Virus record (IMG/VR): IMGVR_UViG_3300034523_000028
Coordinates: 1 to 22,654 of that record
DNA from: a virus
DNA length: 22,654 nt
Direction: 5' to 3' (one strand)
Position numbers and translations under genes: made by a program. The notes beneath the pieces are model-generated. The model was given only the letters and a program-made list of their open reading frames with translations. It searched no databases and was not told the DNA's origin. Shown piece after piece: positions 6,349 to 17,812 of the stretch (position 1 is the first letter of the stretch; every line of letters starts with the position of its first letter).

Positions 6349-8387
6349 TGAATGTCAGCCTATATATATTAGGTCAGCTTGCTGATATAGAGCCTCAAGA
6401 CTTGAAAGGAGAATATAACCTTGCTAATGTCGGTGATTTAAGTAAACGCTTAGGCTCGAAAACGAATCAGTTTACTTTGCCACCAACTGCAAACAATCAA
6501 GCTATATTTGAGAATGCAAACCAAACTTTGAGTAATACGGGTTTACCTTACATTATGATACCTTGCCAACTATTGTGCGATGGAGTAGATATGAGGTTTG
6601 CTAAATTAATTTTAAATTCTAGTGGCGATTATGGATTTAAGGTTACTTTGTTCGACACGTCAGCTTCTTTTTTTGATTTGATAAAAGGTAAAAATCTAAA
6701 AGATTTAAATTTAAGGAATTTAAACCACCATTGGAATTTAGATAGTTTGCCATTGTTTGATGACTACAATAATCCATTAACTTATGCAGTTACAGATTGC
6801 CAAGTTGATAGCCCTAATGATGCTTTTCCAGATAATAGTTCAAGCATATTTTTGGGTGTTTTATTGCCTATGGTAAATGAAAACTATTTAATTGAAAAGA
6901 TAGTAAATGAAAGAGGTTACACACTAGATAATAAAGTTTTAAATGATGGGTACTTTGAGGATAGAAAGCCTGTGATTCCTGTTAGCGTCAATCAAAATAT
7001 AATAGACGATGACCATGATAGATATATAGGGTTGTTTAGTTTAGAAAATCAATTATACGCACCTCCATTAAATACAGCTCCATATCAATGGAAGTTACAA
7101 TCGATATTAAGACAAAATCAAAGGTATTGGGATGCGGAGAATTGCCCTATAAATAAGCTATATTGGATGATTCCAGATAAATCAACCATAAAATTTAAGT
7201 TGAGGTTTGAGGTTAAAGATAGCACACACATAAGCACAATAGGAACATACAACTTTTATTGGGGCAATTGGAATACTTATGGCAATATAGGGCTAGAAGG
7301 ATTTAGTTTTGTTCGTGTTACAGACCAATGGACATTAAAAGAAGTTACTGCAACTATAAACATAACAGGTTCAATAGATAACGCAACAAATGGGTTTTAT
7401 ATATACGGTGATTATCCAGTCCCTAGTGATTTAGAATTTAGGAATGCGACTGTGGAAATATTAGAGGCGAATAAATACGGATATGATTCAGAACCTAATA
7501 TTGTATGGGATAATCCGATAACAATTTATGACCCAAGAAATGTATATAATTACTTAACAATTGCGAACAGCCTACCAAAGCTAACACAAGCTGAATTTTT
7601 AAAACAATACTCGTTAAAATATGGTTCAATAATACTGGTTAATGATTATAAAAAAACTGTTACTATAAGACCATATAAAGACATTTTTAATTTATGGAAT
7701 AGCGAAGATTGGAGCGGACTTGTAGACTATACCGATAAACCTGAAATACTTTATCAAGTTGACAAAATAATTGGGGAGTATTTATATGGCAATAAAATGG
7801 AGCAAGACCCAACAACAACACAACCTTACCCAAAACCAATAGGAACTGATTTGATTATTGATTTAGGCAATGTGGTTAAGTCTGATAAATTAGAATTAAA
7901 ATATGATGCAACTAGAATTATTCAAAAACCATTTACTAGCTACACAGCTGAAATAGCACATATACCAACGTTTGAAAGTTATGGTTATATTGGTAGTGAT
8001 AAAACGGTATGCTTAATGATGCGAGAGCAAACTGGAGCGTTTGAATATAAAGATGAAGCCGTTACAACTATTAATACAAACACTTACACAACGATAGACA
8101 ATAGGCACTTTACAACCTACTTTATTGAAAGTGCAAACGTGTTTAACTTAGGATTTGCTAATGATTTATTTAATGTTTTTTATGCAACAATTTCAAAAGC
8201 AATTAATGACAAACCAATAATAATAAAGTGTTTCATGAGATTAGGAATTGATAAAATAGCTAATTTCAGTTGCGAAAATCCTGTGTACATAAAAGAATTA
8301 GATGGGTATTATATCGTTAACAAAATAGTGACTTCCTTAAATACTAATGATAGCGCGGAGGTTGAACTAATTAAAATTAAATTATAA
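6348..8387 (+). CDS. Large tail-tip/hub (Tal-like) protein with possible carbohydrate-binding insert
   Basis: 679 residues. The N-terminus (VSLYILGQLADI, then LSKRLGSKTNQFTLPPTANN ending near residue 50) matches an opening I associate with tail-hub proteins of Bacteroidota phages. A central section (about 250-375) is rich in aromatic beta strands, with FYWGNWNTYG and a run resembling a jelly-roll carbohydrate-binding module. The C-terminal third (about 395-679) again looks like a hub domain (LPKLTQAEFLKQYSLKYG, a long beta section, then DGYYIVNKIVTSLN). The likely role is the tail tip that contacts the host surface. No peptidase or lysozyme motif is seen. One-base overlaps on both sides tie it to its neighbours. 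Confidence 0.55.
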   Translation: MNVSLYILGQLADIEPQDLKGEYNLANVGDLSKRLGSKTNQFTLPPTANNQAIFENANQTLSNTGLPYIMIPCQLLCDGVDMRFAKLILNSSGDYGFKVTLFDTSASFFDLIKGKNLKDLNLRNLNHHWNLDSLPLFDDYNNPLTYAVTDCQVDSPNDAFPDNSSSIFLGVLLPMVNENYLIEKIVNERGYTLDNKVLNDGYFEDRKPVIPVSVNQNIIDDDHDRYIGLFSLENQLYAPPLNTAPYQWKLQSILRQNQRYWDAENCPINKLYWMIPDKSTIKFKLRFEVKDSTHISTIGTYNFYWGNWNTYGNIGLEGFSFVRVTDQWTLKEVTATINITGSIDNATNGFYIYGDYPVPSDLEFRNATVEILEANKYGYDSEPNIVWDNPITIYDPRNVYNYLTIANSLPKLTQAEFLKQYSLKYGSIILVNDYKKTVTIRPYKDIFNLWNSEDWSGLVDYTDKPEILYQVDKIIGEYLYGNKMEQDPTTTQPYPKPIGTDLIIDLGNVVKSDKLELKYDATRIIQKPFTSYTAEIAHIPTFESYGYIGSDKTVCLMMREQTGAFEYKDEAVTTINTNTYTTIDNRHFTTYFIESANVFNLGFANDLFNVFYATISKAINDKPIIIKCFMRLGIDKIANFSCENPVYIKELDGYYIVNKIVTSLNTNDSAEVELIKIKL

Positions 8388-12547: not shown

Positions 12548-12581
12548 ATAATTAAAAAATAAAATTTAAAAAAAAAGAAAA

Positions 12582-14284: not shown

Positions 14285-14563
14285 ATGCTATTAGATGAAA
14301 TAAAAGAAAATGTTTTAAATTATTCAATTGATAAAGTTGATATTAAACAACTTAATAAATATCATGAATTAGTTTATAATCAAGGAATAGATTTAAAGTG
14401 CCCAATGTGCATAACGGAGGCTTACTTTAGAATTTCAAAGTATTATCGTAAGCACATTAATGGAGATGAATATAAGAGAGTTACTTTATTGAAACTTGCT
14501 TTAGTGGAATTTGAGAAAGAGCAAAATTATGAATTGTGTGATTTTATAAAAAAACGTTTATGA
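14285..14563 (+). CDS. Small protein of unknown function with a CPMC motif
   Basis: 92 residues, first gene of the glycosyltransferase-portal operon. It is helical and charged, with an N-terminal MLLDEIKENVLNYSIDKVDI, then GIDLKCPMCITEAYFRISKY, where the C-x-x-C pair (C39 and C42) could be redox-active or bind metal if other ligands join, and a final helix ending in CDFIKKRL. I do not recognise the family. Its stop overlaps the next gene by 4 bases (ATGA at 14560). Position right after a tail tube gene would fit a tail assembly chaperone, but it lacks a frameshift partner and the sequence gives no support for that. Confidence 0.6.
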   Translation: MLLDEIKENVLNYSIDKVDIKQLNKYHELVYNQGIDLKCPMCITEAYFRISKYYRKHINGDEYKRVTLLKLALVEFEKEQNYELCDFIKKRL

Positions 14564-15207
14564 AAAAAACAATAATAACAAGGTCCCAAAATGAAAAGCT
14601 GTATAAAATTGCTAAATCATTTTTGAGTAGCGAAAACGAATTTATCCAATGTAAGCAGTTCAAAGGATTTGAAGGTGCTGTTAATTATTTAAAATGGATT
14701 TTTGAAACACAAAGCGGATGGGTTGTTAATGTAGATGAAGATTGCTTTATTGTAAATGAAAACCTAATAGACGTTTGTATTAATCAAATGAAGCGAAACG
14801 GGTGGGTATATGCAGGCGTTCCCGATGGAGGTGGATTAATTCCACATCGAAACAAATCTAAGTACACAGCAAACCCTTTTTTTAATATATTTAATGTGGA
14901 TGCCATTAAAGAAAAATATAATAGTTTTAATGATATTATAGACTTTGATCTGATTAAAGAAATAGAAGCTAACTATAATCTTGATGAGCCTTTTGCATGG
15001 CTTTTTTATTGGATGTTTAAAAACTTTTCATCAGCTGAATTTTCTGATATTGATAGCACCGATGGAACGTCTACAATAATAAATGTAAACAAAAAGCCTA
15101 TGCTGATTCACAGTTGGTATAGTAGAATGTACGATAAGGATGCAGACCAAACTGAAAGAATTAATAAATGTATTGAGTGGGCTATAATTCAAAAAATGCA
15201 GCCATGA
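14560..15207 (+). CDS. Putative GT-A glycosyltransferase 1
   Basis: 215 residues. It opens with a basic strand-helix unit (MKKTIITRSQNEKLYKIAKS), then a helix with FEGAVNYLKWIFE, and GWVVNVDEDCFIVNENLI (53-70), where D59-E60-D61 forms a DxD-type metal and sugar-nucleotide site on a hydrophobic strand. Further on, GWVYAGVPDGGGLIPH and a DEPFAWLFYWMF helix are consistent with an acceptor pocket, and the C-terminal HSWYSRMYDKDAD could supply a metal-binding His. This supports a GT-A fold, but I cannot place the CAZy family. It overlaps the gene before (ATGA) and the one after. Acceptor unknown: virion glycan, protein, or host cell-wall sugar. Confidence 0.6.
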   Translation: MKKTIITRSQNEKLYKIAKSFLSSENEFIQCKQFKGFEGAVNYLKWIFETQSGWVVNVDEDCFIVNENLIDVCINQMKRNGWVYAGVPDGGGLIPHRNKSKYTANPFFNIFNVDAIKEKYNSFNDIIDFDLIKEIEANYNLDEPFAWLFYWMFKNFSSAEFSDIDSTDGTSTIINVNKKPMLIHSWYSRMYDKDADQTERINKCIEWAIIQKMQP

Positions 15208-15815
15208 AAATAATAGTACCATACAGAAACAGACCCGAAAATTTAGAAGTATTTTTAAAAGAATATTCAGATTTTGATATACTTATTGTAGAACAAGAGG
15301 AAAGAAAGTTATTTAATCGTGGAAAACTTATGAACATTGGATTTAATGAGTGTAAAGATGATATAGTTTGCTTTCACGATGTGGATTTAATTGCTGAAAA
15401 TAAAGAAATTTACAATCAATATGTTGAGGGTGCAATCCATTTAAGTGGTTTATGTAGTCAATTTAACTATAAAAAACCTTATGCAGATTTATTTGGCGGT
15501 GTAGTTATGTTTGATGCTCTTTCATTTTTAGCTTGTAACGGATTTAGCAATAGCTATTGGGGATGGGGAGGTGAAGATGATGACCTCTACAAACGCACTA
15601 TATTAGCAAACGTAAAAGTAGATATGCAACTAAACAGATATAAGTCTTTAAATCACGAGAAACAGCCCATTACAGCCATGTATGATTCAAATAAGAACAT
15701 ACTTAAGCAAACGGATAAACTGTGGCAAAAAAGCGGTTTAAATTCGATGCGATACGAAATTATAGAACTGCAGAACATATCAGATAATATTCAAAAAATT
15801 AAAGTAAATTTATAA
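15204..15815 (+). CDS. Glycosyltransferase 2, GT7 (galactosyltransferase)-like
   Basis: 203 residues from the ATG at 15204, which overlaps the previous stop as ATGA. An upstream non-ATG start at 15177 would add 9 residues and is less likely. Motifs match the beta-1,4-galactosyltransferase (GT7) family: KIIVPYRNRPENLEVFL at the N-terminus, KLFNRGKLMNIGFNE (36-49), CFHDVDLI (57-63) with a D-V-D metal motif, and WGWGGEDDDLYKR (119-131), the GT7 acceptor/catalytic signature. A YKSLNHEKQP segment follows, with His151 as a possible metal ligand. It probably transfers a sugar from a nucleotide donor to a glycan or glycoprotein. Small, soluble, no membrane segment. Confidence 0.85.
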   Translation: MKIIVPYRNRPENLEVFLKEYSDFDILIVEQEERKLFNRGKLMNIGFNECKDDIVCFHDVDLIAENKEIYNQYVEGAIHLSGLCSQFNYKKPYADLFGGVVMFDALSFLACNGFSNSYWGWGGEDDDLYKRTILANVKVDMQLNRYKSLNHEKQPITAMYDSNKNILKQTDKLWQKSGLNSMRYEIIELQNISDNIQKIKVNL

Positions 15816-15831
15816 CCAAAATAATAATTAT

Positions 15832-16173
15832 ATGAGTGATTTTAAATTATGCAAATGGCAATTAAAAGATGGACTTTCTGAAATTGTTTTTAAAAATGAC
15901 AAAGGCACACGACTGTTAATTAATGAAGATAACATTAATGACGAGCTAGTGAAGATGGCTACCGATAAAGGAAAAGGTCACTGCTTTGTTGAGCGTAAAA
16001 TAGTTGAGTTAAAAAAAAAGCAATTTCAACACCAATACAAGCCTGTTACATCAACCTTAAACGAAGTGCCGACCGAAGAGAGCGATTCATTACCAGCTGT
16101 CGAGAACAAGCGGGTAGACTCTTTACAAGTGGAGAAAAAGAAAAAGGGCAGACCAGCCAAATCAAAAGAATAG
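15832..16173 (+). CDS. Small phage protein with a basic GRPAK tail (0-frame product)
   Basis: 113 residues. Residues 1-63 make a compact N-terminal domain (MSDFKLCKWQLKDGLSEIVF, then LLINEDNINDELVKMATDKG and GHCFVERKIVELKKK). The rest is low-complexity and charged, ending KKKKGRPAKSKE, an AT-hook-like basic tail. I associate this plan ('NxxDE' segment plus 'RGRPK'-type tail) with small proteins near head genes of Bacteroidota phages; function unknown. From 16021 to the stop, this frame overlaps the GT25 reading frame. At residues 61-63 the codons AAA AAA AAG form a slippery site, so residues 1-63 may also start a fusion with the glycosyltransferase. The preceding 16 bases hold no clear ribosome site. 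Confidence 0.75.
   Translation: MSDFKLCKWQLKDGLSEIVFKNDKGTRLLINEDNINDELVKMATDKGKGHCFVERKIVELKKKQFQHQYKPVTSTLNEVPTEESDSLPAVENKRVDSLQVEKKKKGRPAKSKE
16014..16020 (+). promoter_or_regulatory. Candidate -1 programmed frameshift site A AAA AAG
   Basis: The run of nine As (16011-16019) followed by G reads, in the upstream gene's frame, TTA AAA AAA AAG. The last seven bases form A AAA AAG, the E. coli dnaX-type slippery heptamer. A -1 shift continues as GCA ATT TCA into the open frame that encodes GT25. The preceding stop in that frame (TGA, 16005-16007) is upstream of the site, so the shift is productive. I see no strong downstream hairpin or upstream Shine-Dalgarno element. Polymerase slippage on A9 giving A10 would have the same result. 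Confidence 0.6.
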
Positions 16174-16664
16174 AAGCCGTTGATGGACTTAACTTAACAA
16201 GTCCTATACATGGAGTTACTAACTTTGAGTACGCCTGTTTGCAAAGTCATTTAAAAGCTTTGAAATGGGCTAAAAGCACTGGAGCCAAGCATGTAGCTAT
16301 ATTTGAAGATGACATTTTATTTGACAATGGATTTGCGCACAAATTAGAATACTATTTAAAACAAGCCCCCGATAATTTTTGTATCATGTATCTAGGCGGT
16401 TCCTTCGGTCGTAAACCACAACCGATGAACTTAGATTTTACAAAGCAAGTTATGACTTGGGGGGCTTTTGCTTACATTGTAAATTGTGATTATGTAGATG
16501 AATTAATTAATTCAATTTCTATGGCTAAAAAAATAACGGATGCTGTATATATTGACTTTCAAAATAAGTATGTTTGCATCAAGCCTATAAAGAAATTAGT
16601 TACACATCCTAAAGGGTTTAGCACTATAAAAAACAAAGACGTAGATTATAAGCATATAACATGA
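16020..16664 (+). CDS. Glycosyltransferase 3, GT25 family, reached by -1 frameshift from the upstream gene
   Basis: After the slip the frame gives 214 residues. ACYINLKRSADRRERF contains the characteristic GT25 N-terminal 'Y/VINLxRxxDRRERF' sequence. It is followed by IKRIEAVDGLNL, then ACLQSHLKALKWA and HVAIFEDDILF, the GT25 acidic E-D-D motif. Downstream, MYLGGSFGRKP, WGAFAYIVN and a final THPKGFSTI fit the family's C-terminal half. No ATG, GTG or TTG occurs in this frame between the TGA at 16005 and the N-terminal motif. The first usual start, TTG at 16239, would remove the first third of the domain. The predicted fusion with residues 1-63 of the upstream gene has 277 residues, with E159-D160-D161. 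Its stop overlaps the portal start (ATGA at 16661). GT25 enzymes add galactose or glucose to lipopolysaccharide or collagen-type acceptors. Confidence 0.8.
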   Translation, partial: AISTPIQACYINLKRSADRRERFITSCREQAGRLFTSGEKEKGQTSQIKRIEAVDGLNLTSPIHGVTNFEYACLQSHLKALKWAKSTGAKHVAIFEDDILFDNGFAHKLEYYLKQAPDNFCIMYLGGSFGRKPQPMNLDFTKQVMTWGAFAYIVNCDYVDELINSISMAKKITDAVYIDFQNKYVCIKPIKKLVTHPKGFSTIKNKDVDYKHIT

Positions 16665-17812
16665 ATTTAGCAAAAGTTTTTAGAAATCTTTTACCGAAAA
16701 CAAAGGAAAATAATAATGGTGGAAATAGCTATTATAAATTTGGGCACAATGATAATTTACCACTTGAATTAATAGAAGCCATCAACAATAGTGGTGTAGC
16801 TAAAAAATCATTAAAAAAATACAGCGACTATGTACAAGCGGATGGGTTCGTGAGTCCAATAGCTTCAAGTAAAATTGTGAATAATGAAACCAAAGAAACG
16901 GCAGATTTAATACTTAGAAAAATTGCTTTAGCATTTGCTTATTTTAATGGTGCTTTTTTGCACATAAAAAGAAATGGATTGGGATTAGTTGAGGCTATTA
17001 CATTATTTCCAAACCAAAAAATAAGACGTGGTTTAGATGGTAAAAGCTGGCTATACAACCCAACTATCGGAACTGATAAAGTAGAAAAAAACACATGGGT
17101 AAAGTATCAAAACTTTGTAGGCTATCAAGCAACTTTAGAAGATTTACAAGATAATATAATTGAATATGATGGTAATGGCGAAATATATTATTGTAATGAT
17201 GGTAACATATTCGATAGTTCTATTTATTCTTTGCCAGATTATTTAAGTTCAATAGAAGATATAAAAACATCGGCTGAAATATCCAAGATGGATTATGAAG
17301 CCGTTTTAAATGGCTTTGTTTTGGGTGGTGTAATGACCTTTGTAGGTGTTGATAATACTAGCGAAGATGAAAGTGGTCAAACCGAAGAAGATAGAATTTC
17401 GGATGGATTAACTTCATTTACAGGATTAAAGAAAAATTCAGATGGGTTAAGTTCAAGATTTGGTTTGCTTGTAAACTTTGTAAAAACGGCTGAGCAAGTG
17501 CCTACTTATACAGGCTTTGATCCTAAACCAATATTGGAGGCTAGTAATGCTAAAAGAGATATTATAGAACGTGCGGTTTGTAAGCTATGGAGCGTACATC
17601 CTGTGCTATTAGGATATTCTGAAGCGTCTGTATTAGGCAATGATAAAGCCATTCAACAAGCAATGGACATTTTAAAACAATCTGTTAATCCTATTCAACG
17701 AATAATTACTCAAATGTTTATTGACTTTTATGGCAGTTCTATTGACTGGACTATAAGTGAATTTGGAGTTAAAAAATTAATCATAAATACAACTACTGAC
17801 AATGCGCAATAA
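16661..17812 (+). CDS. Portal protein
   Basis: 383 residues, within the range for siphophage portals. It has an N-terminal NSYYKFGHNDNLPLELIEAI, then a helical stretch with LKKYSDYVQADGF, a beta-rich wing (about 90-190), an acidic clip-like segment near 235-250, and the C-terminal AKRDIIERAVCKLWSVHPVL, then LLGYSEASVLGNDKAIQQAM. That last part is a typical portal stem/crown helix region ('H-P-x-L-x-G' plus 'A-x-x-Q-A-M'). Portals form a dodecameric ring at one capsid vertex, where terminase docks. The gene starts inside the stop of GT25 and overlaps the next gene by 11 bases, which couples portal translation to the glycosyltransferase operon. It lies far from terL, which is unusual. Confidence 0.85.
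   Translation: MNLAKVFRNLLPKTKENNNGGNSYYKFGHNDNLPLELIEAINNSGVAKKSLKKYSDYVQADGFVSPIASSKIVNNETKETADLILRKIALAFAYFNGAFLHIKRNGLGLVEAITLFPNQKIRRGLDGKSWLYNPTIGTDKVEKNTWVKYQNFVGYQATLEDLQDNIIEYDGNGEIYYCNDGNIFDSSIYSLPDYLSSIEDIKTSAEISKMDYEAVLNGFVLGGVMTFVGVDNTSEDESGQTEEDRISDGLTSFTGLKKNSDGLSSRFGLLVNFVKTAEQVPTYTGFDPKPILEASNAKRDIIERAVCKLWSVHPVLLGYSEASVLGNDKAIQQAMDILKQSVNPIQRIITQMFIDFYGSSIDWTISEFGVKKLIINTTTDNAQ

Follow-up and report, generated by a model that had tools for sequence, protein, structure and literature searches.

In the IMG/VR virus record analysed here, a stretch of 22,654 bases that we call the window, a GT25 glycosyltransferase is apparently reached only as a fusion to the N-terminal domain of a short upstream protein, through a -1 change of reading frame at an uninterrupted run of nine As. 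Judged from the sequences compared, this arrangement is beyond chance: it recurs in 24 further loci from four clades, and the junction is the sole run of at least nine As in the window's coding sequence. We consider programmed transcriptional slippage on the A-run the probable source of the fusion. An earlier note had concluded that the enzyme is apparently made only by recoding, and this is borne out by conservation in the four clades, by selection on both frames and by the absence of any conserved start codon.

A GT25 frame without a start codon

The features of the locus are listed in Table 1. The GT25 frame is preceded by a TGA at 16005, and its translation from 16008 begins VKKKAISTPIQACYINLKRSADRRERF. 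We found, in agreement with the earlier note, that ATG, GTG and TTG are all absent between this stop and the conserved INLKRSADRR motif, and CTG is absent there as well. With a standard start, the longest ORF opens only at 16239 and so leaves out the N-terminus; gene callers will cut GT25 genes of this kind short or overlook them. The run of nine As followed by G stands where the GT25 frame opens, as the earlier note had also described, and a -1 shift there joins 63 upstream residues to 214 residues of the GT25 frame in a fusion of 277 aa, with GT25 residues onward from K-K-A-I-S-T-P-I and the first beta strand at I-Q-A-C-Y-I-N. The same 277-aa protein results from one A added to the RNA or from a ribosome slipping back by one. 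As the protein is identical by either route, mass spectrometry could prove the fusion and would not separate the two mechanisms.

Table 1. Features of the GT25 junction and neighbouring genes in the window
Feature	Position	Strand	Evidence or remark
Conserved 215-aa protein, same module	14560..15207	+	glycosyltransferase-like by eye only
GT7-type galactosyltransferase (203 aa), ordinary ATG start, same module	15204..15815	+	PF02709, E=1.8e-22
0-frame ORF, 113 aa	15832..16173	+	ORF list; purifying selection as far as its own stop
N-terminal domain, 63 codons, common to short product and fusion	15832..16020	+	
GT25 open frame, -1 relative to the 113-aa ORF	16008..16664	+	PF01755; FEDD acidic motif
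A9 slippage site	16011..16019, then G	+	A9 or A10 in 25/25 loci
Heptamer A AAA AAG, 0-frame register	16014..16020	+	window's clade only
Overlap read in both frames: tail of the 0-frame protein, N-terminus of GT25	16020..16173	+	
ATGA, portal start overlapping GT25 stop	16661..16664	+	in 23/23 loci reaching it, every clade
Portal gene, downstream	16661..17812	+	phrog_11226, E=6.5e-19

The GT25 sequence matches Pfam family PF01755 (E=1.3e-11, 45.2 bits against a cut-off of 24), and matches above the curated cut-off were also obtained in all 12 relative contigs tested. Its structure model (pLDDT 80) has a GT-A fold whose first strand spans residues 8-14 of the -1 translation, and the best PDB matches are ColGalT1 and mimivirus R655; by sequence and fold together, its best relatives are the human collagen galactosyltransferase ColGalT1, mimivirus R655 and bacterial beta-1,4-galactosyltransferases. 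The AIFEDD motif is invariant in the GT25 of the relatives. A plausible role for the predicted enzyme, by analogy with mycobacteriophages, whose virion proteins are glycosylated (as cited in PMC12619734), would be modification of virion proteins or of surface glycans.

The 113-aa protein, which is the expected non-recoded product, consists of a 60-aa beta-rich domain, a Lys-rich linker and a conserved C-terminal tail, KKKxGRPxKSK. AlphaFold models the N-terminal domain with pLDDT of about 84-87 at residues 11-50, placing strands at residues 9-11, 17-21, 27-31 and 52-54 and a helix at 37-45, from which a beta-beta-beta-alpha-beta core is predicted with fair confidence. No usable identity for this domain was found in Pfam, PHROG, PDB or fold searches; the best BFVD match is an uncharacterised phage protein (A0A6J5QQC0, E=2e-3). 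The description of this gene as encoding a head-region protein thus keeps the support of gene position and gains none from family or fold matches.

Conservation of the junction in four clades

We searched IMG/VR with three queries, the GT25, upstream and portal proteins, and obtained 24 further analysable loci, all of the compared sequences being metagenome consensus contigs. The loci fall into four clades: W, the window's own; B (L012/L024, L023, L026, L031, L035); C (L019-L022, L025, L027-L030, L032-L034, L037); and D (L017, L018). Measured against the window, sequence identity in the other clades is about 54-57% for GT25 and 37-51% for the upstream protein. Gene order in representatives of each clade is capsid, a 190-aa protein, a protein of about 100 aa, the 215-aa protein, GT7, upstream protein/GT25 and portal, with one extra small ORF in clade C. 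One contig (3300034061_002014; L028 and L033) has a copy of the module at each end, the two GT25 sequences differing, and is probably a circular or chimeric assembly.

Comparison of these contigs shows that the A-run, the offset, the dual coding and the integrity of GT25 are all conserved. An uninterrupted A9 or A10 stands at the junction in 25 of 25 loci, with GT25 in the -1 frame each time, and a partial locus (L114) has A9 in the same context. Neither an in-frame fusion nor a homopolymer indel was found among the 25 loci, and in none does an NTG codon lie between run and GT motif; only in L035 does a TTG precede the run. Outcomes that the earlier note had named as contrary to recoding, an ATG-started GT25 or an A-run fusing the two genes in frame, were sought among the relatives and neither was found, and the viral contig scans returned no member of the group that has a GT25 with its own start or that lacks GT25. 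The codons around the run vary: besides the window's, the clades read CAA AAA AAA AGC/AAC, GAA AAA AAA AAT and GTC/ATC AAA AAA AAA GAC/AGC, so that the codon phase of the run differs between clades (2, 1 and 0). Where A9 has become A10 within a clade, a substitution (AGC to AAC) accounts for it and the total length is kept, and the first nine bases of the run have no variable site in any clade.

Beyond this group, INPHARED yielded only distant GT25 matches, in large phage genomes, and no relatives of the 113-aa protein or of the portal. A search of genome contigs likewise returned only distant GT25, and thus gave no host or prophage link. A distantly related phage GT25 (L038) is ATG-started, with its start 12 residues before the equivalent motif, which is the position where the A-run now sits in the recoded loci. 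This correspondence suggests that GT25 was an ordinary gene that lost its own start and came under the upstream ORF.

Selection on both reading frames

Variable sites were counted within clades by 0-frame codon position (1:2:3). Before the A-run they fall mostly at 0-frame position 3 (17:13:63), and after the 0-frame stop they fall at the third position of the GT25 frame (17:146:26), while in the two parts of the overlap they are split and reduced (2:8:6 and 4:9:21). These patterns place both frames of the overlap under purifying selection. By this measure GT25 is under purifying selection, the 0-frame protein is likewise selected as far as its stop codon, and the segment that separates run and motif is constrained in either frame. 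The KKxGRPxKSK tail of the 0-frame protein is also kept among the relatives.

Conservation and dual-frame selection together make several other explanations unlikely. GT25 could be translated as a separate protein from a non-AUG start at ATT 16023, ATA 16035 or ATC 16050, all present in the window, in which case the A-run would look like an A-rich upstream region. We regard this as very improbable, since no ATT, ATC or ATA position is conserved as a start: in place of ATT 16023, clade B has GTT or CTT and clades C and D have ATC or ATT, and in L023 and L031 the sole AT-N codon downstream of the run is the ATC of the INL motif. In the model, the first strand opens about five residues ahead of this ATC, the only conserved one, so that initiation there would leave the fold incomplete, and the linker between the A-run and the INL motif is itself constrained in the -1 frame (2:8:6). 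Glycosyltransferase genes with long homopolymers are a common setting for phase variation, and the run could be a contingency locus at which DNA indels from replication slippage toggle GT25 on and off; yet all 25 loci are off by one in the same way and no contig has an indel in the run, which makes this reading more improbable still. The least credible is that the offset is a sequencing or assembly error or marks a decaying gene. Homopolymers are error-prone and these are metagenomic contigs, but the same offset recurs across contigs of four clades, drawn from over 20 metagenomes, where error would be expected to give other offsets and none was seen, and the strong purifying selection on GT25 after the 0-frame stop speaks against decay. 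The cross-clade comparison refutes this explanation.

Possible mechanisms: polymerase slippage or ribosomal frameshifting

Two mechanisms could make the same fusion. Programmed -1 ribosomal frameshifting would proceed by tandem slippage of tRNA-Lys on A AAA AAG or A AAA AAA, as is known from dnaX and IS elements. Consistent with this, the offset is -1 in all loci and each has one or the other heptamer in register, which is unavoidable in any A9 and would let ribosomes slip in every clade; the window's clade has the classic bacterial heptamer A AAA AAG. Between clades, however, the heptamer is not conserved, and the A-run always exceeds the six to seven As that such slippage needs; the conserved feature across clades is a run of at least nine As whatever the codon phase. 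Compared with shuffled sequence, pseudoknot-free folding of the downstream RNA gave z of about -0.9 to +1.5 in 11 of 12 loci and -2 in L030, so that no unusually stable downstream structure was found in those 11. The dnaX-type frameshifting at A AAA AAG that the earlier note had proposed is disfavoured by both results, the heptamer being confined to the window's clade and stable downstream structure not being found. Of the two features whose conservation in relatives it had suggested checking, the overlap is kept and the heptamer is not.

Runs were also counted in the coding sequence of one genome per clade, with expectation taken from synonymous shuffling. Sense runs of A9 or longer total 5 against 12.8 expected, and four of the five are the junction site; outside the junction there is 1 against about 12 expected. 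Runs of A7 (38 against 42) and A8 (11 against 16) are little avoided, so avoidance is much sharper at nine As than at seven or eight. In-phase heptamers, however, also show mild avoidance (42 against 60), a point against polymerase slippage. In the window's coding sequence alone, 4.8 such runs were expected where only the junction occurs. In many bacterial genomes the avoidance of slippage runs likewise appears at nine As, and conservation of run length among homologues has been taken as a sign that slippage is used (PMC1088944). Two features by which transcriptional slippage is recognised, an A/T run of at least nine conserved without indels and avoidance of such runs elsewhere in coding sequence, are present here, with the qualification that the clades have common ancestry and their run lengths do not amount to four independent observations. 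The conservation of A9-10 in varying phase, the lack of unusually stable downstream structure in 11 of 12 loci and the avoidance of A9 elsewhere favour polymerase slippage. Weighed jointly on this sequence evidence, polymerase slippage comes out as the probable mechanism and ribosomal frameshifting as a tentative alternative, with little probability left for everything else together.

Under polymerase slippage, the majority of transcripts would carry the templated A9 and be translated in the 0 frame into the 113-aa protein. In a minority, host RNA polymerase would slip on the A9-10 and add one A (or 1+3n), and these transcripts would yield the 277-aa fusion of the 63-residue N-terminal domain with a complete GT25. 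With the slip as the sole route to the enzyme, enzyme and short protein would be made in linked amounts, and the domain they have in common could bring the enzyme to wherever the short protein assembles; most likely, as in other recoded pairs, an excess of short product over a rarer long one would then give a capped dose of enzyme tethered to its partner. Placing the slip at RNA polymerase and not at the ribosome is our inference, as are its efficiency and a targeting function for the N-terminal domain.

Two further sets of A9 runs were noted. Two clade B genomes have another coding A9 in the gene of a Cys-rich protein (MKKCKICK / MSEGKKCKVCK; L144:2182-2718 and L147:4337-4882), about 12 codons from its end; it is possibly a second slippage site, which would alter the C-terminus only. 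An intergenic A9 (12568-12576) lies just upstream of the window's capsid gene, and in clade D and L015 an A9 stands shortly upstream of the capsid ORF or in the corresponding position; such runs may be translation-initiation or promoter elements.

Gene neighbourhood and possible coupling to the portal gene

The window contains a tailed-phage morphogenesis operon, which encodes terminase, a tape-measure-like protein, proteins of the capsid region and the portal and includes a small glycosyltransferase module; GT25 lies beside GT7 within this head-gene operon. Together with GT25, the 215-aa protein and GT7 (14560-15815) make up a module conserved in every clade; for the 215-aa protein no Pfam or PHROG match was found. 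Elsewhere, towards the window's terminase end (670-1464), is a further possible glucosyltransferase (PHROG 842, E=2.7e-5). The large terminase is about 30% identical to those of Bacteroides and Parabacteroides phages and also matches many from Flavobacterium phages, which makes a host in Bacteroidota probable.

ATGA-type overlaps are common in the window's genome, another lying at 15204-15207. The overlap of GT25 stop and portal start suggests that ribosomes ending GT25 may feed the portal gene through ATGA. In Shigella spa13, the slippage-made extension overlaps the next gene and slippage changes its expression (PMC5009743), and the ATGA here would allow the same. With this precedent, coupling to the portal is worth considering: slippage may also set portal output, and portal translation may hang on ribosomes in the -1 frame.

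Comparison with known systems

Phage recoding has mainly been recorded for tail chaperones and coat-protein extensions. Our search of an open-access library found no earlier phage glycosyltransferase made by recoding, and nothing on point for transcriptional slippage combined with a phage glycosyltransferase. Here the recoded unit is a whole enzyme without its own start, apparently reachable only by slippage, and the arrangement persists in proteins that now share about 55% identity. Should polymerase slippage prove to be the mechanism, this would be a clear use of it by a DNA phage, and also a means of setting how much of a virion-modifying enzyme is made or where it is placed. More speculatively, and in our view doubtful as a whole, polymerase slippage in a DNA phage, conserved in four divergent clades, could tether a glycosyltransferase in set ratio to a small protein of the morphogenesis operon and deliver it to assembling virions, a Gag-Pol-like glycosylation in which slipped transcripts would also gate the portal via ATGA.

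The tail-assembly chaperone gpG/gpGT of lambda uses ribosomal frameshifting. It resembles the present locus in that a small product is accompanied by a rarer -1 extended product with a common N-terminus (PMC5009743). Chaperone genes lie just upstream of the tape measure gene, whereas our site has the GT7 gene on one side and the portal gene on the other, and the 864-aa tape-measure-like ORF starts at 8387; the product here is not a chaperone and its extension is an enzyme. Frameshift extensions of phage capsid and tail proteins (T3, A2, PSA; Ig-like domains) and retroviral Gag-Pol share with it that recoding adds a domain to a minority of the protein, and in Gag-Pol this carries an enzyme into the particle (PMC5009743). 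Here the extension is GT25 and not an Ig-like domain, and a virion location of the 63-aa domain is putative. With the GT25 family (ColGalT1, mimivirus R655, bacterial galactosyltransferases) the domain shares GT-A fold, sequence family and acidic FEDD motif, and differs in lacking its own start codon and in its N-terminal fusion by recoding. A likeness in mechanism would be to transcriptional slippage at A9 in Thermus dnaX, IS elements and Shigella spa13 and mxiE, where about nine As are conserved and one gene yields alternative C-termini (PMC5009743; PMC1088944); the present case, in which slippage is predicted from sequence, differs in coming from a tailed phage and in having as its extension a whole glycosyltransferase domain.
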